DNA of 49,243 nt from Acidobacteriota bacterium. Lineage in GTDB: Bacteria; Acidobacteriota; Vicinamibacteria; Vicinamibacterales; CAVVIG01. The position numbers and the translations under genes are program-made. Below, in pieces: positions 4,755-40,562 of this stretch (positions are counted from its first letter, which is position 1; each line of letters opens with the position of its first letter). The notes under the pieces were generated by a model. It saw only the letters and a program-made list of their open reading frames with translations, searched no databases and had not been told where the DNA came from. The stretch is taken from NCBI GenBank assembly GCA_028876655.1, contig JAGWRA010000226.1, positions 1 to 49,243 on the forward strand, written 5' to 3'.

Positions 4755-4779
4755 GGGCGAGTCACGGACGGAAGACGTC

Positions 4780-4807
4780 ATGAGTTATGAGTCTTGAGTC
4801 ATGAGTG
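4780..4807. repeat. Heptad array, word WTGAGTY
   Basis: Four consecutive 7-bp units of the form ATGAGTT, ATGAGTC, TTGAGTC, ATGAGTG. It is the first of three different heptad arrays in the divergent gap between the Nudix gene and the M61 peptidase gene. Confidence 0.75.
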
Positions 4808-4816
4808 AGGGGCGCC

Positions 4817-4844
4817 AGGCTCCGGGCTGCAGGCTACCGGGCTG
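4817..4844 (-). repeat. Heptad array, word GYAGCCY
   Basis: On the minus strand the units read CAGCCCG, GTAGCCT, GCAGCCC and GGAGCCT. The same word family forms arrays at 6813-6847, 18938-18965 and 20875-20902. Here it follows the GCAAYGR array in the same order and orientation as at 18868-18965. Confidence 0.75.
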
Positions 4845-4852
4845 AAAAGAGA

Positions 4853-4887
4853 GCAATACCCATTGCGCATTGCCCGTTGCTCATTGC
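4853..4887 (-). repeat. 35-bp heptad element, GCAAYGR x4 plus GTATTGY (copy 1)
   Basis: On the minus strand this has five exact heptads: four variants of GCAAYGN and a closing GTATTGC. The same five-unit structure recurs at 18868-18902 and 39592-39626, so it is a true dispersed repeat rather than local slippage. Confidence 0.85.
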
Positions 4888-4915
4888 GACCGCGGGCCAC
4901 GGGCATGGTCGATCT

Positions 4916-18902: not shown

Positions 18903-18937
18903 GCTGATTCGCGGGCTTGCTGCCGCGTGTCAGGACC

Positions 18938-18965
18938 GTAGCCCGTAGCCTGCAGCCCGTAGCCA
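18938..18965 (+). repeat. Heptad array, word GYAGCCY
   Basis: Four exact heptads: GTAGCCC, GTAGCCT, GCAGCCC, GTAGCCA. It lies 36 bp after the GCAAYGR element, repeating the two-array order seen on the minus strand at 4817-4887. Its end runs into the AGGAAG ribosome site of the small gene at 18980. Confidence 0.8.
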
Positions 18966-18979
18966 GGAAGCACGTCCCC

Positions 18980-20815: not shown

Positions 20816-20874
20816 TGCCATCGGCTTCGGGCTCCAGGCGTCAGGGCCCTCTTGGCGAGCACGTGCTCAATTCC

Positions 20875-20902
20875 GCAGCCCGCAGCCCGTGGCCCGTCGC
20901 CG
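20875..20902 (+). repeat. Heptad array, word GYAGCCC
   Basis: Four heptads: GCAGCCC, GCAGCCC, GTGGCCC, GTCGCCG. It lies in the 101-bp gap between the symporter and the nitrilase-family gene, ending 14 bases before the latter's ATG. Confidence 0.7.
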
Positions 20903-20916
20903 GACCGAACTGACCC

Positions 20917-24434: not shown

Positions 24435-26891
24435 ATGCTTCAGCACCATCGCTCCTCCGAGCGCGGCATCGCTCTCATCACCACGCTGCTGGTAATGATG
24501 CTGATCTCGGCGCTGCTCGTCGGCTTCACGGCCGTCGTGATGAGCGATCAGCGCTTCCGCGGCATCGACATGGACCGGACGCAGGCGTTCTACGCCGCGC
24601 ACGCCGGCCTCGAGAAGCTGACGGCCGACCTCGGCAACCTCTTCGACACCAACGTCGCGCCGACCGCCGCGGCCGTCGATGCGCTGACGGCGACGCCGCC
24701 GGCGCTGCCCGGCATCGTCTATCAGGCGGCCGACGGGTCCTCGGGCTATGCGATCTCCTTCGCCGTCGACGCCAACGGCAACCCGGTGGCGCAGGACCGG
24801 ACGATCCTCTCCGGCCCGTACCAGGGGCTGATCGGCCTCATCACCCCCTACCAGATGGACGTCACGGCCCGGACGACGCGGGGCGGCGAGGTCCACCTGA
24901 CGCGGACCATGCAGACGGTGGCCATCCCGGTGTTCCAGTTCGGGACCTTCTCGGACACCGACCTGAGCTTCTTCGCCGGACCGGCGTTCAACTTCGGCGG
25001 CCGCGTGCACACCAACGGCAACCTGTTCCTGGCCGAGGGGAACGGCAACACGCTGACACTGGCCGACAAGGTGACGGCGGTCGGCGAGGTGATCCGGACC
25101 AACCTGTCGAACGGCTGGCCGACGAGCAGCAACTACACCGGGACGGTGAACGTGCTCACCGCGCCTGGCGCGTACCGCGCGCTGAAGTCGAGCGAGGGGA
25201 GCCTGGTCGGCACCGTGGGGTCGGCGCGGAACGACCCGACCTGGACCAACCTGTCGCTCGGCACCTACAACGGCAACATCCGGAACGGCCGGACCGGGGC
25301 GACGCGGCTCGACCTGCCCCTCATCACGGTCGGCGGGCAGACGACCGACCTGATCCGGCGGCCGGCGTCGCCGGCGGAGAACATCACCAATCCGATCCTG
25401 TTCCAGCAGCGCTACTACAGCATGGCGAGCCTGCGGATCCTGCTGTCGGACAATCCGAGCGACATCACCGCGCTGCCGACCACCGTCCCCGGACCGGTCA
25501 TCCAGCTCGACGACCTCGCGAAGACCCCGATCACGGGCTACACCGTCGACGCGAACCACCCGCCGCTGGCGCTGTCGTCGGGCGTATCGGCCGACGGCTA
25601 CCGCTCGCCCGCCGATACGCCGCTCATCGGCGGGTACATCCGGATCGAGAAGCAGGACACCGCCGGCAACTGGACCGACGTGACCAGCGACATCCTCAAT
25701 CTTGGCATCGCCGGGAAGAACCTCGGTGTGGCGGGCTGCACCGATCCGAACCCCGACGCGGTGATCCGGATCGAGCACCTGCGCGACACGCCCTCGACGG
25801 CGCCGACGAACGCCTGCGGCAACGGCAGCACGAACCCCTACGACTACTGGCCCAACGTGCTGTTCGATCCGCGCGAGGGCGACGTGCGCGACAACAACTC
25901 GACGTCGAGCGGCAACATCTATCTTGGCGGGGTGATGGGGTACGTCGAGCTCGACGTGCGGAACCTGTCCCGGTGGTTCGAGGGGCAGATCGGCACCGAG
26001 GGGACCGGTGCCATGGACACGACCGGCTACGTCGTCTATTTCTCCGACCGGCGGAACAACGAGAACGCGACGAACCAGGAGACCGGTGAGTACGGCTACG
26101 AGGACGTGATCAACCCCTCGTCGCCGTCCGGGACGCCGAACGGGGTGCTGGATCCCGGCGAGGACGTCAACGGCAACGGCGTGCTCGACACCTACGGCGG
26201 CGTGCCGCAGCCGCCGACCGGGGCGACCTCGCCGCTCGACTCGACGGCGACGCCGATGACGTCCGTCACGGCCGCCATCGCAAAAGTGAACCGACCGATC
26301 TTCTTCCGGCGGGCGCTGAAGCTGACCGACGGCAGCCTGGGCAACATCATCGCGCCAGGCCTGACGGTCGTCTCGGAGAATCCGGTGTACCTGCAGGGCG
26401 ACTGGAACGCCGCGGGCGGCTTCGGCGATCCGCACGTGGCGACGGCGATCATCGCCGACGCGCTCACGCTGCTGTCGAACAACTGGAACGACAACAATTC
26501 GTTCGCGTACCCGCAGAGGCCGTCGGGGCGCCAGGCGACGACGACCTGGTATCGCGTGGCCGTGATCGCCGGCAAGACGCTGTCGTTCCCGCAGCCCACG
26601 TGGGGCGCGGCGCAGGACTTCGGTACCGACGGCGGTGTCCACAACTTCCTGCGCTACATCGAGAGCTGGAGCGGCGCCTCGCTGAACTATCGGGGCGCCA
26701 TCGCCAGCTTCTTCTACAGCCGGCAGGCGATCGGCACCTACAAGTGCTGCACGAACGTCTACAGCCCGCCGAGCCGCGGCTACAACTTCGACACCGACTT
26801 CCTGACGCCGGCCCTGCTGCCGCCGCGCACGCCGGTCTTCCGCGACCTGAACACCCTCGGCTTCACCCAGGTGATCACGCCGGGCAAGTAG
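24435..26891 (+). CDS. Giant PilX-type pilus assembly protein
   Basis: An 818-residue protein beginning 14 bp after PilW. The N-terminus is PilX-like: ERG followed by IALITTLLVMMLISALLVGFTAVVMS, then QAFYAAHAGLEKL (the QAxxxAEAG-type motif), without the usual Glu5. Classic PilX is about 200 residues, so roughly 600 residues are extra. The extension contains a beta-helix-like part (FNFGGRVHTNGNLFLAEGNGN) and an EF-hand-like loop, DPGEDVNGNGVLD. No PilY1 gene follows, so this protein may combine PilX and tip-adhesin roles; that is inference. It ends the operon. Confidence 0.85.
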   Translation: MLQHHRSSERGIALITTLLVMMLISALLVGFTAVVMSDQRFRGIDMDRTQAFYAAHAGLEKLTADLGNLFDTNVAPTAAAVDALTATPPALPGIVYQAADGSSGYAISFAVDANGNPVAQDRTILSGPYQGLIGLITPYQMDVTARTTRGGEVHLTRTMQTVAIPVFQFGTFSDTDLSFFAGPAFNFGGRVHTNGNLFLAEGNGNTLTLADKVTAVGEVIRTNLSNGWPTSSNYTGTVNVLTAPGAYRALKSSEGSLVGTVGSARNDPTWTNLSLGTYNGNIRNGRTGATRLDLPLITVGGQTTDLIRRPASPAENITNPILFQQRYYSMASLRILLSDNPSDITALPTTVPGPVIQLDDLAKTPITGYTVDANHPPLALSSGVSADGYRSPADTPLIGGYIRIEKQDTAGNWTDVTSDILNLGIAGKNLGVAGCTDPNPDAVIRIEHLRDTPSTAPTNACGNGSTNPYDYWPNVLFDPREGDVRDNNSTSSGNIYLGGVMGYVELDVRNLSRWFEGQIGTEGTGAMDTTGYVVYFSDRRNNENATNQETGEYGYEDVINPSSPSGTPNGVLDPGEDVNGNGVLDTYGGVPQPPTGATSPLDSTATPMTSVTAAIAKVNRPIFFRRALKLTDGSLGNIIAPGLTVVSENPVYLQGDWNAAGGFGDPHVATAIIADALTLLSNNWNDNNSFAYPQRPSGRQATTTWYRVAVIAGKTLSFPQPTWGAAQDFGTDGGVHNFLRYIESWSGASLNYRGAIASFFYSRQAIGTYKCCTNVYSPPSRGYNFDTDFLTPALLPPRTPVFRDLNTLGFTQVITPGK

Positions 26892-26907
26892 GGGACTGAC
26901 GGAGTCA

Positions 26908-26970
26908 GGGACAAGGGGCAAGGACAAAGGGGCAAGGATCGTCCTTGTCCCTCGTCCCCTGTCCCGTGCC
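26908..26970. repeat. Inverted heptad array, GGRCAAG then CCTNGTC
   Basis: Nine heptads: GGGACAA, GGGGCAA, GGACAAA, GGGGCAA, a junction GGATCGT, then CCTTGTC, CCTCGTC, CCCTGTC and CCGTGCC. The second half is the reverse complement style of the first, so the whole array folds into a long hairpin; the inner arms are 11 bp with one wobble. It lies exactly between the convergent stops of the giant PilX (26891) and the zinc protease (26990), where a bidirectional terminator is expected. Confidence 0.8.
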
Positions 26971-26989
26971 CCTGATACCGTCCACCCGG

Positions 26990-29560
26990 CTACTGTCCGC
27001 CGGTCCCCCCGCTCCTCGGGCTCGCCCCGATCGGATCCCCCGGCGGCTCCGGTTGCGTCGCTGTCGGCACGTAGGTGGACGCCGGACGGTTCAGGAAGCG
27101 GGTGATGTCCTTCCCCGTCGTCCACCAGAAGGCCTTCGTGATCGCGTCAGCCCCTGCCGGCGGGTGCAGCAGCGAATCCCGCAGGCTGCGGAGCGCCATC
27201 GTGGCGACGGCGCGCACCTGCGCGTCGGCCTTCTGATTGGCGGCCAGCTCCATCAGCCGGTGGACGACGACTTCCTGCACGGCCCGGGCGACGACGGCCT
27301 GGGCGCCATTGGCTGGAATCGCGTCGGTCCAGGTCTTCTTGACGAGCGCCTGGACGACCTCGGTGAAGCCCGGATCGTTCGCGTCGCGGCCGTGGAACTC
27401 GACCAGGCGGGCGGCGCGCTGCGGCTGCAGCAGGCCCGACACCGTCATGTCGGCCGCAATCGAGGCGGCGGCGACCGGATCGAACACCGGCGCCATGTGG
27501 CCGGTGAACAGCTCCTCGGTGGGCGGATGGTCGCCGTCCGGGACCGGCGGAATGAGATCGAGGATCCGGTCGGGCAGCGTCAGCGCGTCGAGGTCCAGCG
27601 TCTCGAGCACCGCGCTGAGGGCGTCACGCTGCTTCGCCGCCGGGATGATCTGGGTCACCTGCGCGGGGCTCGGCACGCCGTCGGTCTTCACCGAGTACGT
27701 GTAGTACATCCCGCCGATCGTCTTCGTGGCCGCGAACAGCTGGTAGCGATGGTGCAGGTAGATCGGCAGCAGCTTCGCCTGCAGCGCGGCCAGCGGCGTG
27801 CCGTTCGAGATGTTCTTCAGGCCGAATTCCGACAGCGCGATCTTCCGGACCTCAATCTCGTGACGCAGCTCGGCGACCGCGTCCGAGCCGTTGTCCCAGA
27901 GGGTGGCGCGCGGATCGGCCGCACCGGCCGGCCGGGCCTCGGCGTCGCTCAGGTAGAGCATGCCGTCCTTCTGGCCGTCGGCGATGATCTGGGCCAGCGC
28001 CTTGTGCTCGTCGGTCCCCGGGGGGAACTGCGAGTAGCCGTACTTGATGGCGAACTTGTCGTACGACCCGATGCCGACGGCGTACGCGTGCGACAGGTCG
28101 AGATGGCCGTCGTGGATCTCGACGAGCGGCGCGGGGTAGTCCATCACCGAGGCGCGGCCGAAGGTGCTGGCGGCGAAGTTGTGCGCGAGGCCGAGCGAGT
28201 GGCCGGTCTCGTGGGCCGCCAGCTGGCGCAGCCGGGCGAGCGCCATCTGCACCGGCGTGGTCGAGGGATCGAAGTCGGCGAGGTACGACTCGTCCGGCAG
28301 CGCGCCGGCGTCGCAGTAGCCGCGCGTGAAGCCCCAGGTGAACGGCGGCTCGCCGCCCGCGGCGGCCGAGGCCGATGGAACGCCGACGAGACCGCTGCCG
28401 ATGAGATAGTCCTGCCGGATCCGCAGCGAGCCCAGCGTGACGTTCCCCTTCAGGATCTGGCCCGTGCGCGGATCGATCACGCCGCCGCCGTACGACCAGC
28501 CGCGCGTCGAGCGGTCGACCCAGTTGATCATGTTGTAGCGCAGGTCCATCGGGTCGGCCCCCTGCGGCAGCACGCGCACCTGGAAGGCGTTGTGGAAGCC
28601 GGCCGCCTCGAACGCCTGGTTCCACCAGGACATGCCCTCCATGATCGTGTCGCGGATCAGCTTCGGCGCCGTGTTGTCCACGTAGTACACCAGCGGCTCG
28701 ACGGGATCGGACATCGCGGCCGCCGGGTTCTGCTTCACCAGCTTGTGGCGCGCGATCCAGGTGTGCACCAGCTTGCCGTCGATCGGCGCCGCGTAGTCGT
28801 TGAACTCGACGCCGAAGTACCCGACCCGTGGATCGGCATCGCGCGGGGTGTAGCTGCCGAGCGGCGGCAGCTCGACGAGCGAGTAGTGCTCGCGGACGGT
28901 CACCGCGTCGGGCGTCGGCGTCACCTGCGAGATCTCGGGCCCCGGCTCGCCGTCGGTCGTGAAGGTGAGCGTGACCTCCACTTCGGTGTTCTTCGGGAAC
29001 CCCTTCGTCCGCGGTTCGTAGAAGGCGCTGCGGGTCAGGTCGAGCTTGTAGTGGCCCTGCTTCGTCCGTTCCAGCTGCCGGGCCACGCCATGGGCGTCGC
29101 GCAGGAAGAAGTCGGTCGCATCGACCAGCACGTGGTCACCCGTCTGCGCCGCCACGGTGAAGCCCCACAGCACCGACTGTGCGAACGACTCCCGCACCCC
29201 GCGCTGCATGTCGCGGTTGCCGGTGACCGCCCGGTAGTCCTGGTTCGGCTGGACGAGCAGCACCTTCGGCCCGACCCGCACGAAGTGGACGACGGCCGTG
29301 GGACCGAGCTGGTTGCGGTCGAGGCCGATCGGATTGGAGCCGACGCCGGCCGTCAGCGAGACCTGGTACAGGAAGTCGTCGCGGAAGCGATCGATCTCCA
29401 TGTACACGTGACCGGTCGCATCGTCGCGGTACAGCGGCACGAAGCCGTCGATCTTCGTGAGGCCGGCGGTCTTCTGGGCGATCGTCGGCAACGGCTTCGC
29501 GGCAGCCGCCGCCGGCGCTGCCAGAAGCGCCAGCAGCAAGGTGACCATCAGTCTTCGCAT
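26990..29560 (-). CDS. Secreted zinc-dependent metalloprotease, DUF5117/DUF4953 type
   Basis: An 856-residue protein. The start at 29560 follows an AGGAGAA site and gives a signal peptide (MRRLMVTLLLALLAAPAAAAA). The N-terminal half has beta-rich segments typical of DUF5118/DUF5117. The catalytic centre is HETGHSLGLAHN, with H450, E451, H454 and H460, a metzincin-like HExxHxxGxxH motif. The C-terminal part (YMPPIGG-like region replaced here by YYTYSVKTDGVP) is helical. Such proteins are common in Acidobacteriota and Bacteroidota and act outside the cytoplasm; substrates are not known. It is transcribed alone, and its 3' end shares the inverted heptad array with the PilX gene. Confidence 0.9.
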   Translation of the reverse strand: MRRLMVTLLLALLAAPAAAAAKPLPTIAQKTAGLTKIDGFVPLYRDDATGHVYMEIDRFRDDFLYQVSLTAGVGSNPIGLDRNQLGPTAVVHFVRVGPKVLLVQPNQDYRAVTGNRDMQRGVRESFAQSVLWGFTVAAQTGDHVLVDATDFFLRDAHGVARQLERTKQGHYKLDLTRSAFYEPRTKGFPKNTEVEVTLTFTTDGEPGPEISQVTPTPDAVTVREHYSLVELPPLGSYTPRDADPRVGYFGVEFNDYAAPIDGKLVHTWIARHKLVKQNPAAAMSDPVEPLVYYVDNTAPKLIRDTIMEGMSWWNQAFEAAGFHNAFQVRVLPQGADPMDLRYNMINWVDRSTRGWSYGGGVIDPRTGQILKGNVTLGSLRIRQDYLIGSGLVGVPSASAAAGGEPPFTWGFTRGYCDAGALPDESYLADFDPSTTPVQMALARLRQLAAHETGHSLGLAHNFAASTFGRASVMDYPAPLVEIHDGHLDLSHAYAVGIGSYDKFAIKYGYSQFPPGTDEHKALAQIIADGQKDGMLYLSDAEARPAGAADPRATLWDNGSDAVAELRHEIEVRKIALSEFGLKNISNGTPLAALQAKLLPIYLHHRYQLFAATKTIGGMYYTYSVKTDGVPSPAQVTQIIPAAKQRDALSAVLETLDLDALTLPDRILDLIPPVPDGDHPPTEELFTGHMAPVFDPVAAASIAADMTVSGLLQPQRAARLVEFHGRDANDPGFTEVVQALVKKTWTDAIPANGAQAVVARAVQEVVVHRLMELAANQKADAQVRAVATMALRSLRDSLLHPPAGADAITKAFWWTTGKDITRFLNRPASTYVPTATQPEPPGDPIGASPRSGGTGGQ

Positions 29561-32798: not shown

Positions 32799-32822
32799 GG
32801 GGCGCTCGGCGCTCCCACTCCG

Positions 32823-32886
32823 CACGTCGTACGTTGTACGTGGTACGTCCGCACGTTGTACGTGGCACATCGTACGTCGTACGTGA
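32823..32886. repeat. Heptad array, word TACGTNG
   Basis: Nine heptads of the type YACGTNG (CACGTCG, TACGTTG, TACGTGG, TACGTCC and so on) with one extra G in the middle. It lies in the divergent gap between padR and purE. Because TACGTA-like words are self-complementary, the array can form several hairpins. Confidence 0.85.
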
Positions 32887-32927
32887 CCTGGAACGCCCCC
32901 GGGTTCCGCCCCGGGACCCGAAGCAGG

Positions 32928-35864: not shown

Positions 35865-36968
35865 ATGACTGAGATGACTGTCGTGACGGCACGAACGAAC
35901 GACGTGGATGCTCGGCGTTGGCAGGCCGTACTGGCGCGCGACGCGCGTGCCGACGGCACCTTCGTGTACGCCGTCCGTTCCACCGGTATCTACTGCCGGC
36001 CGACCTGTGCGAGCCGCAGGCCGCGGCAAGACCAGGTCGCCTTCTTCGACGATGGCCGGGCCGCCGAGCGGGCCGGCTTCCGGGCGTGCCGGCGCTGCCG
36101 GCCGATGGAGCAGGCGGCGGGCGACCCGTGGATGGCGCGCGTGCAGCAGGCCTGCGACCTCCTGGCGCGGGCGGGGGAGACACCGATGACGCTCGAGCGA
36201 CTGAGCCGGCGGATTGGCGGCAGCCCGTCTCACGTGCAGCGCAACTTCAAGCGGATCATGGGGGTCTCGCCCCGCGAGTACGGCGACGCCTGCCGGCTGG
36301 GCCGCGTGAAGCGGAAGCTCAAGGCCGGCGAGGCGGTCACGACGGCGCTCTACGACGCCGGGTACGGATCGAGCAGCCGGCTGTACGAACGGGCGCCCGC
36401 GCAGCTGGGGATGACGCCGGCCTCGTACGCGCGTGGCGGCGCCGGGGCGGAGATCCGGTTCGTGGTCACCGATTGCCCGCTCGGCCGGCTGCTGGTGGCC
36501 GCGACTTCCCGAGGAGTCTGTGCGATCAAGCTGGGCGACAGCGACACCGCGCTCGAGCGGGAGTTGCGGCACGAGTTCCCGGCAGCGGCGATCCGGGCGG
36601 ACGCCGGCGCGCTGTCGGGACAGGTGCGGGCCGTCCTCGCCCATCTCGAGGGCCGGCGCCCCGCGCTCGACCTGCCGCTCGACCTGCGGGCGACGGCGTT
36701 CCAGTGGCAGGTGTGGCGGCAGCTCAGGGCGATCCCGCGCGGCACCACCCGGTCGTACGGCGAAATCGCCGCAGCGATCGGTCGGCCCGGCGCAGCCCGC
36801 GCCGTCGCGCGCGCCTGCGCCTCCAATCCCGTTGCGCTCGCCATCCCCTGCCACCGCGTCGTCCCCGCCACCGGCGGCACGGGCGGCTATCGGTGGGGGG
36901 TGCAGAGGAAGAAGACGATTCTGGAGAGAGAGAAGGGGAAGGCTTGTAACGTGGAACGGAGAACGTAG
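35865..36968 (+). CDS. ada: Bifunctional Ada: methylphosphotriester-DNA methyltransferase, AraC-type regulator and O6-methylguanine-DNA methyltransferase
   Basis: A 367-residue protein with the complete Ada layout. The N-terminal zinc domain has C44, C48, C75 and C78 (GIYCRPTC and ACRRC), where one Cys takes methyl groups from phosphotriesters. An AraC-type helix-turn-helix spans about 95-190 (LSRRIGGSPSHVQRNFKRIMG). The C-terminal MGMT domain has PCHRV with acceptor C329. E. coli Ada is 354 residues. The last residues (CNVERRT) are encoded by a heptad repeat, so the tail is probably not functional. It should sense alkylation damage and activate itself and perhaps the following oxygenase gene. 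No classical Ada box was seen. Confidence 0.95.
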   Translation: MTEMTVVTARTNDVDARRWQAVLARDARADGTFVYAVRSTGIYCRPTCASRRPRQDQVAFFDDGRAAERAGFRACRRCRPMEQAAGDPWMARVQQACDLLARAGETPMTLERLSRRIGGSPSHVQRNFKRIMGVSPREYGDACRLGRVKRKLKAGEAVTTALYDAGYGSSSRLYERAPAQLGMTPASYARGGAGAEIRFVVTDCPLGRLLVAATSRGVCAIKLGDSDTALERELRHEFPAAAIRADAGALSGQVRAVLAHLEGRRPALDLPLDLRATAFQWQVWRQLRAIPRGTTRSYGEIAAAIGRPGAARAVARACASNPVALAIPCHRVVPATGGTGGYRWGVQRKKTILEREKGKACNVERRT

Positions 36969-36980
36969 AACGGAGAAGGA
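36946..36980. repeat. Heptad array, word RGAACGK, overlapping the ada 3' end
   Basis: Five heptads (GTAACGT, GGAACGG, AGAACGT, AGAACGG, AGAAGGA). The first three lie within the last codons and stop of ada, the rest downstream. It shows that arrays can reach into coding sequence. Confidence 0.75.
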
Positions 36981-37054
36981 GGCCCACCCGACGGAGTGCC
37001 GCACTGAGCAGCTACGTCGCTGACCACAGGATCCGGAGCGTGAGCGACGGCCGT

Positions 37055-39572: not shown

Positions 39573-39591
39573 GGAGCAGGGCTGAGCTATC

Positions 39592-39626: not shown

Positions 39627-39658
39627 TCAAAGCCGGGCGCAGGCGATGGTTGCTGCTC

Positions 39659-39720
39659 GTTGGACGTTGGACGTCGGACGTCGGACGATGGGAATGGACG
39701 TTGGACGTCGGACGTCGGAC
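39659..39720. repeat. Heptad array, word GTYGGAC
   Basis: Units GTTGGAC twice, GTCGGAC twice, a disturbed GATGGGA plus ATGGAC, then GTTGGAC and GTCGGAC twice, running up to the aldolase stop at 39735. The two halves are near-identical, suggesting a duplicated block. It lies between convergent genes. Confidence 0.85.
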
Positions 39721-39734
39721 GTGACGACGTTCCC

Positions 39735-40562
39735 CTACCGCCCCGCCGCCCTGCGTCCCAGCACCAGCGCCTCCGGATCGGTGGCCATGATCACGCGGAA
39801 GCCCTGTTCGACGCGCCGGACGATCTCCTGCTGGCCGGCGGTGATGCCGCAGGGGACGCCGGCGTCCTTCGCGGCCGCGAGGACGGTCTGAATCGCCTGC
39901 TCGGTCGCGTCGCGGTCCCACGCGTACGAAACCGACAGGTCGCCGGGCGCGGCGACGACGACGCTCAGGCCGGGCGTCCGGGCGATGGCCGATGCGTGGC
40001 GGACGCCGAGCGGGTTCTCGATGAGCGCCATGCTGACGAGCTCGCCGTCCGGGTCGAGCGGCCAGACGTCGGCCGCCCGCAGGTAGTCCATCAGCGACAG
40101 CCCCCAGAGGCGGCAGGCGGTGAACGGGCCGGCGCCGCGCTGGCCCGCCGGTTCGGCGTCCGGCGTGCCGGGCGCGTGCGGATAGCGCATCGCGCGGACC
40201 AGGCTCAGCGCCTGCTCGGCCGTCTCGATGTGCGGCACGATCACGCCGTGCACGCCCTGATCGAGCACCTGCTTCACCATCCAGTGGTTCATCTCGCGGC
40301 CGTAGGCGGGAATCCGCGCGAGCACGGGATGGTCGGTGCCGGGCCGGCCGCGCCGCAGGATGGCGGCCGGATCGATCGTGAACTGCAGCCAGGTCCGGAG
40401 TTCGGTCACGTCCAGCGGGCTGTGTTCCATGTCGTAGAACACGAAGTCCAGCTGGTCGTTGCGGACGATGCCCGCCGCGCCGTCCGGGCTCCTGTTGTCG
40501 GCGAACAGGCCGAACACCGTCCGGCCCTCGGCGAGCAGGCTGATCATCCGGTTGTGCCGCAT
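39735..40562 (-). CDS. HpcH/HpaI-type class II aldolase/citrate lyase family protein
   Basis: A 275-residue protein whose ATG overlaps the stop of the DedA gene and follows GGAAGGGTGGAG. Family features are DFVFYDMEHSPLD near the N-terminus, MALIENPLGVRHASAI (metal-binding Glu) and VVVAAPGDLSVSY (metal-binding Asp). HpaI enzymes use a divalent metal and pyruvate-type enolates to make or break C-C bonds in 2-keto-3-deoxy acids. It is the last gene of a four-gene operon, whose other members suggest a biosynthetic rather than aromatic-catabolic role. Confidence 0.88.
   Translation of the reverse strand: MRHNRMISLLAEGRTVFGLFADNRSPDGAAGIVRNDQLDFVFYDMEHSPLDVTELRTWLQFTIDPAAILRRGRPGTDHPVLARIPAYGREMNHWMVKQVLDQGVHGVIVPHIETAEQALSLVRAMRYPHAPGTPDAEPAGQRGAGPFTACRLWGLSLMDYLRAADVWPLDPDGELVSMALIENPLGVRHASAIARTPGLSVVVAAPGDLSVSYAWDRDATEQAIQTVLAAAKDAGVPCGITAGQQEIVRRVEQGFRVIMATDPEALVLGRRAAGR

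Follow-up and report, generated by a model that had tools for sequence, protein, structure and literature searches.

Why would an array of short repeats keep its period while reversing its sense, in the gap where two genes converge? This question is raised by a 98-bp gap in the window, the whole 49,243-nucleotide stretch of an Acidobacteriota genome analyzed here, between a PilX_N-type gene, whose stop on the + strand ends at 26891, and a Met-zincin gene, whose stop on the − strand begins at 26990. A preliminary description had reported four GGRCAAG-type heptads followed by four CCTNGTC-type heptads, all in one 7-bp register and forming a long hairpin, and had read the preserved register as a sign of either a bidirectional terminator or an origin by copying of both strands. 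The gene calls bear out its placement of the array between two convergent stops: the element (26906–26975) lies in the middle of the gap, with 14 bp to the gene on either side (Table 1).

Table 1. Coordinates of the hairpin, its parts and the two converging genes in the window
Feature	Position	Strand	Basis
Converging gene 1: PilX_N-type pilus assembly protein, 818 aa	24435–26891	+	Gene calls, domain match
Whole inverted repeat, including short outer stem extension (GACGG.../...CCGTC)	26898–26982		Fold
Left (sense) arm: CAGGG end and degenerate GGRCAAG heptads	26906–26938	+	Sequence, sibling alignment
Hinge/loop TCG	26939–26941		Fold; length differs between copies
Right (antisense) arm: CTTGTCC-type heptads, terminal CCCCTGA	26942–26975	+	Sequence, sibling alignment
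Converging gene 2: Met-zincin (DUF4953/DUF5117) protein, 875 aa	26990–29617	−	Gene calls, domain match

Structure and folding of the hairpin

The array and its long hairpin are real, and the inverted repeat is even longer than first described: its arms (26898–26938 and 26942–26982) comprise 41 nucleotides each, are 73% complementary and enclose a loop of 3 nucleotides. Both sets of heptads are present. The sense heptads, read from 26909, are GGACAAG, GGGCAAG, GACAAAG and GGGCAAG, three of the four being exact GGRCAAG; the antisense heptads, read from 26943, are CCTTGTC, CCTCGTC, CCCTGTC and CCGTGCC, two of which fit CCTNGTC exactly, the rest with one and two mismatches.

The RNA of 26898–26982 is predicted to fold at −61.6 kcal/mol on the + strand and −59.6 kcal/mol on the − strand, a nearly equal strength, and none of 200 dinucleotide shuffles per strand was as stable (z = −7.1 and −5.3, respectively). 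We also carried out the comparison with shuffled heptads that the preliminary description had called for. The observed energy was reached in 16 of 1000 shuffles when all units were permuted, in 1 of 1000 when each unit was given a random sense, and in 332 of 1000 when units were permuted within each arm only. Since within-arm permutation does as well in a third of the trials, the hairpin is due to the grouping of sense units first and antisense units after, not to the order of the units. The same result leaves no trace of an origin by strand copying, and fold-back copying was rejected as a recent origin: heptads permuted within the arms pair equally well in those 332 trials. In the hairpin search described below, arms match at 0.82 in the true register and at 0.74 with a shift of ±7; we gave this difference no weight, as the finder is designed to select whichever register fits best. 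The curated covariance models of Rfam gave no match at gathering score anywhere in the window.

A dispersed element in the host genome

A BLAST search with the gap sequence returned 39 matches in the host genome. A covariance model made from 11 copies found 17 places at E ≤ 0.01, and 14 of these are paired-arm copies of the GGRCAAG-type unit, eleven full (63–79 bp) and three short (32–39 bp; C78 twice, C183). This count excludes C14, which is a hairpin of a GCAATG unit, and the weak places C241 and C169 (28.3 and 26.7 bits); single-arm arrays of the GGRCAAG-type unit (C125, C101:12609, C239, C124 and others) also stand outside it. In the alignment of 11 of the 14 copies, most end in CAGGG...CCCTG and their flanks are unlike. 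The left arm is constant in length and carries its sense units at set positions, down to a deviant third unit (GGACAAA) that is the same in most siblings, and the hinge is variable. The outer stem extension at our site lies outside the dispersed element, sibling flanks being different. The site thus holds one copy of a dispersed hairpin element of about 69 bp with four to five degenerate heptads per arm. That the siblings have the same ends suggests that the window copy arose by dispersal of the element and not by local copying.

The siblings also bear on the register. Across the 14 copies, every one of the seven possible phases occurs between the final sense unit and the antisense unit that comes next (phase 0 in two copies, 1 in one, 2 in three, 3 in one, 4 in two, 5 in two and 6 in three). 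The single 7-bp register is thus correct for the window copy and does not extend to its siblings, and its occurrence here is due to chance. With all seven hinge phases represented, a register kept across the change of sense was rejected as evidence, and the argument for function built on it fails.

Copies with the same ends and different flanks are also what would be expected of a neutral or selfish repeat, that is, a short hairpin, either mobile without being autonomous or amplified by slippage, with no role in transcription. We regard this as the main rival explanation, somewhat unlikely in itself and able to fit most of the data equally well, the exception being the placement of the family described below. 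Against mobility of this kind, RAYT-type transposases (PF01797, the only family covered by the transposase search) gave no match in the host genome, which is 97% complete, and the flanks of the copies, inspected by eye, showed no obvious target-site duplication; a MITE would have both a matching transposase and such a duplication. An artefact of assembly or amplification, such as a fold-back chimera in a fragmented assembly, is hardly credible: the host genome is in 281 contigs, as this explanation would have it, but the 14 copies occupy separate loci with the same left arm, and heptad hairpins are also found in G029 and G041, relatives whose genomes are each one single contig.

Genomic placement of the copies

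According to codon-model gene calls, 10 of the 14 copies lie between convergent genes and 4 between tandem genes, where they lie 6–31 bp past the upstream stop; none lies between divergent genes. Gaps over 20 bp in the sampled host genome served as background (39 convergent, 217 tandem and 61 divergent). Because hits guided part of the sampling, this background errs, if at all, toward too many convergent gaps. The convergent excess is significant against all gaps (P = 5×10−7), when a convergent gap is counted as two 3′ ends (P = 6×10−4), and when half of the tandem gaps are additionally taken to lie within operons (P = 0.025).

The genes beside the 13 sibling copies were checked against Pfam for 20 of the 26 flanking proteins. 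The pairs include permease/amidase, Usp/MacB, methyltransferase/IMS polymerase, poly(A) polymerase/desaturase, HlyD/glycosyltransferase and DHDPS/penicillin amidase, among others; in 3 of the 10 convergent pairs (C182, C78 at 9987, C183) one partner had no Pfam match at the cut-off. No single pathway explains the placing, since the neighboring genes are functionally unrelated to each other.

A neutral repeat could accumulate at 3′ ends simply because it is tolerated where neither a gene nor a promoter is broken. The convergent share of this family (10 of 14) is nevertheless above the neutral 3′-end expectation, at the two more demanding of the P values given above (6×10−4 to 0.025), and it is here that the neutral explanation falls short.

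Heptad hairpins with other units in relatives

A search for strong ungapped hairpins covered 15 sets, made up of the window, 40 host stretches and 80 stretches of 13 relatives. Among the 99 strong intergenic hairpins found, the best period was 7 in 42, as compared with 0.5 expected (maximum 4; 200 arm shuffles), 9 in 10 and 8 in 8. Hairpins with 7-periodicity number 43 in 6 genomes, of which 28 are in tandem, 14 in convergent and 1 in divergent gaps, and the upstream stop is the nearer one in 24 of the 28 tandem cases. The shortage of divergent cases is significant against 728 tandem, 174 convergent and 247 divergent gaps (P = 8×10−4). The convergent share of the class (14/42) equals the plain 3′-end share (0.32 expected), which is what a neutral repeat would give.

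Period-7 hairpins were found in 5 of the 13 sampled relatives and in none of the 40 kb by which each of the other 8 was sampled. Their units differ (TCAGCTA, GGGATTC, AGGGCAA, GCAATGR, GGGCTAC, CATGCCT and others). It is evident that heptad hairpins with other 7-mers are common at gene 3′ ends in the sampled relatives. The covariance model of the host family matched 27 of 60 genomes at E ≤ 10−3 and, within the phylum, 18 of 199 at E ≤ 10−5, the host included in both counts. Most of the matches inspected in other genomes proved to be heptad hairpins built from other units, the model favoring heptad hairpins because it is itself heptadic. For this reason the period of 7 in 17 of 19 relatives' loci matched by the model (read from the printout) is not an independent count, and the search for ungapped hairpins (42 of 99) is less biased. 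The single congener compared (G001, 82% complete) has no model match at E ≤ 10−3, as a neutral repeat would also allow.

Hairpins of like build with period 8 (AATGGGGC, GAATTTCA) or period 9 (GGGCGGGAA-like) were noticed at L070 (G055), L137, L138, L146 (G029), L158 and L169 (G015), so that 7 is the commonest period and not an obligatory one. At L025:9774–9913 the unit changes from GAAGAAC to AGGGGCA with the 7-bp step kept, and an antisense arm follows directly.

Terminator features and marks of selection

Like an intrinsic (Rho-independent) terminator, the element is a stable GC-rich hairpin right past the stop, here in both directions. Unlike such a terminator, it has no U-tract after the stem at this site, where CACCCGGCTACT (+) and AGTCCCCTACTT (−) come next. 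The stem of the usual intrinsic terminator is also shorter than the stem here. Among the 56 downstream ends of the wider class, 8 have at least 4 T in 8 nucleotides, a mild excess over the 4% of random intergenic 8-mers, and none has 6 or more. U-tailed terminator-like sites are few in the neighborhood, with 9 found in 19.9 kb and 5.1 ± 2.4 expected by shuffle.

We then looked for marks of selection on the RNA. RNAalifold predicted 24 pairs in the 11 aligned copies, none of which is changed on both sides; with no compensatory changes, covariation is unusable here. On the transcript strand of the wider class, G-U mismatches are no commoner than A-C mismatches (33 vs. 45, P = 0.21), and thus there is no mark of selection on RNA. 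Both the lack of compensatory changes and the lack of RNA-strand asymmetry agree with a neutral repeat.

The lack of strand asymmetry agrees equally with a role at the level of DNA, in which the heptads would be recognized by a gyrase-, IHF- or nucleoid-type protein, or would extrude as a cruciform, at the boundary of converging units. Convergent gaps gather positive supercoiling, which adds to the appeal of this explanation. Paired opposite-strand heptad arrays have, moreover, been proposed as sites of global regulators in Geobacter metallireducens (PMC2700814). The phase and spacing of the arms vary, however, and the unit differs freely across genomes and families, a freedom difficult to reconcile with a single binding protein. 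We therefore consider a DNA-level role improbable.

A structure of another kind, a G-quadruplex formed on the G-rich strand by runs of three to four G every 7 bases, has been proposed for the GGGAATC repeats of Xanthomonas, and G-quadruplex-forming heptads are on record (PMC4692102). The motif G3+N1–7 does occur in the window copy, on the − strand only, and among the 14 copies it is present on the + strand in 5 and on the − strand in 6. At least one strand carries it in 9 of the 14 copies and neither strand in 5. In the period-7 class, it is found in only 14 of the 43 members, although all 43 are hairpins, and G-runs are absent from units like GCAATGR and TCAGCTA. A G-quadruplex cannot be the common feature of a class in which only 14 of 43 members have the motif, and this explanation is very improbable.

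The orthologous gap in relatives

Both G046 and G031 retain the convergent PilX/Met-zincin pair, with no heptad hairpin in either gap; the two gaps fold only modestly better than their shuffles (z = −2.15 and −0.72, respectively). Absence from these orthologous gaps is a further point in favor of a neutral repeat. The end of the Met-zincin gene has a heptad hairpin in G041 and an 8-mer hairpin in G029, which we do not take as conservation of the site, because the opposite genes are not similar. In G041 the 34-bp convergent gap (L101:1482–1515) is taken up by a single heptad hairpin, whose GGGACAA-type unit is that of the window copy, between the end of the Met-zincin orthologue and an unrelated gene.

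The evidence on the bidirectional terminator of the preliminary description is therefore divided. In favor of a role at both transcript ends, 10 of 14 copies are convergent and none divergent, and both strands fold about equally; against a classical terminator, there is no U-tract, compensatory change or G-U excess, and no hairpin at the kept gene pair in two relatives.

Comparison with known repeats

In Xanthomonas campestris/citri, GGGAATC heptamers are intergenic, lie near the 3′ end of the upstream gene with 7–8% between divergent genes, and include 70–75 cases of two close inverted arrays for which a stem-loop is possible (PMC4692102). Inverted heptamer pairs near gene 3′ ends have thus been reported before, and the element here shares with these repeats, of the Xanthomonas/Nostoc type, the tandem 7-bp units, the intergenic position near an upstream 3′ end and the inverted pairs. 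It differs in its unit and in that the Xanthomonas repeats are interpreted as G-quadruplex formers; the available part of that account describes neither a dispersed element whose ends and arms are fixed nor a build shared by many units (PMC4692102).

REP/REPIN sequences (a subject also of PMC3116915) are dispersed intergenic palindromes at 3′ ends, found beside both stops of convergent pairs, and are suspected of forming RNA hairpins (PMC3733652). They are 20–40 bp long, carry GTAG or CGTC as a tag and in many cases go with RAYT genes (PMC3733652), those of the CGTC type likewise occurring without a dedicated RAYT (PMC3733652). Our family resembles them as a set of dispersed palindromes at gene 3′ ends that is rare between divergent genes (10 convergent, 4 tandem, 0 divergent; compare PMC3733652). 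It is unlike them in its length of about 69 bp, its heptad arms, the absence of PF01797 matches from the host genome and its ends, which in most of the 11 aligned copies are CAGGG and CCCTG, with no GTAG or CGTC tag at one end.

In the trnL intron of Nostoc, degenerate heptanucleotide repeats pair into one hairpin and vary in repeat number (PMC3488679); these lie within a tRNA-gene intron and, in the available text, form no dispersed family, whereas the element here is at gene 3′ ends. Geobacter metallireducens has 49 copies of an element with four tandem GGGACCG heptads and a second class with five MTYCTGA heptads and strand-switching sequences, proposed as regulatory RNA or as IHF/HU sites; hairpins at gene ends do not figure in the part of the account available (PMC2700814). 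The literature searched, at the level of titles and abstract openings, gave no description of heptad-built hairpins in Acidobacteriota. Within that literature, both the family and the occurrence of many units of one build in this group, probably the Acidobacteriota, appear to be new. The phylum is indicated by named Met-zincin relatives sharing 56–60% identity.

A possible role at transcript ends

The placing and the fold being directly observed, we infer that the element is, on balance, probably a REP-like dispersed hairpin that acts at the 3′ ends of both transcripts through an effect on RNA, which may include termination. Transcripts of both flanking genes would have the element at their ends, and its RNA hairpin, being nearly symmetric, is proposed to work in both directions. 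It could slow RNA polymerase, block 3′–5′ exonucleases, or both. Each mRNA would then end at the hairpin or just past it, with less antisense read-through reaching the opposite gene. Copies would presumably have spread by some route, and the arms may gain and lose whole heptads by slippage, so that drift of the unit would leave the period of 7 intact.

In high-GC genomes of this kind, the way in which transcripts end is often unclear. A wider reading, which is doubtful and which we put forward only tentatively, is that gene-end hairpins in the order, patchy in the phylum, hold on to an inverted build and a period of 7, at times 8 or 9, whereas the unit is free to differ between genomes and even loci. 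They might represent a self-renewing 3′-end device, in which slippage by whole units rebuilds the arms and any unit that pairs would serve, replacing U-tailed terminators at high GC. Hairpins at 3′ ends with a free sequence and a mostly fixed 7-base period would then be a directly testable answer to the question of transcript ends in such genomes. If this is true, selection for pairing that survives whole-unit slippage could also account for a long-standing puzzle, the surplus of heptamers over other short repeats in bacterial intergenic DNA.

Other repeats in the window

Heptad arrays are also present elsewhere in the window. A divergent gap at 4763–4904 has two, with units GTCATGA and CATTGCG, the latter starting GCAATACC. 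This CATTGCG array belongs to a (GCAATGR)n-GGTATTGC family that is also found at 39591, L025:19720, L062 and L135, and in some members the arms are able to pair around a loop. Further arrays, most of them in gaps or at gene edges, are at 18927–18979 (GTAGCCC), 20860–20911 (CCGCAGC), 32799–32894 (GTCGTAC), 36935–36987 (GAACGGA) and 39638–39736 (CGTTGGA). A coding stretch at 929–1933 is rich in GGTCC and has a 9-bp period, which we take to be that expected of a Gly-X-Y collagen-like repeat protein.
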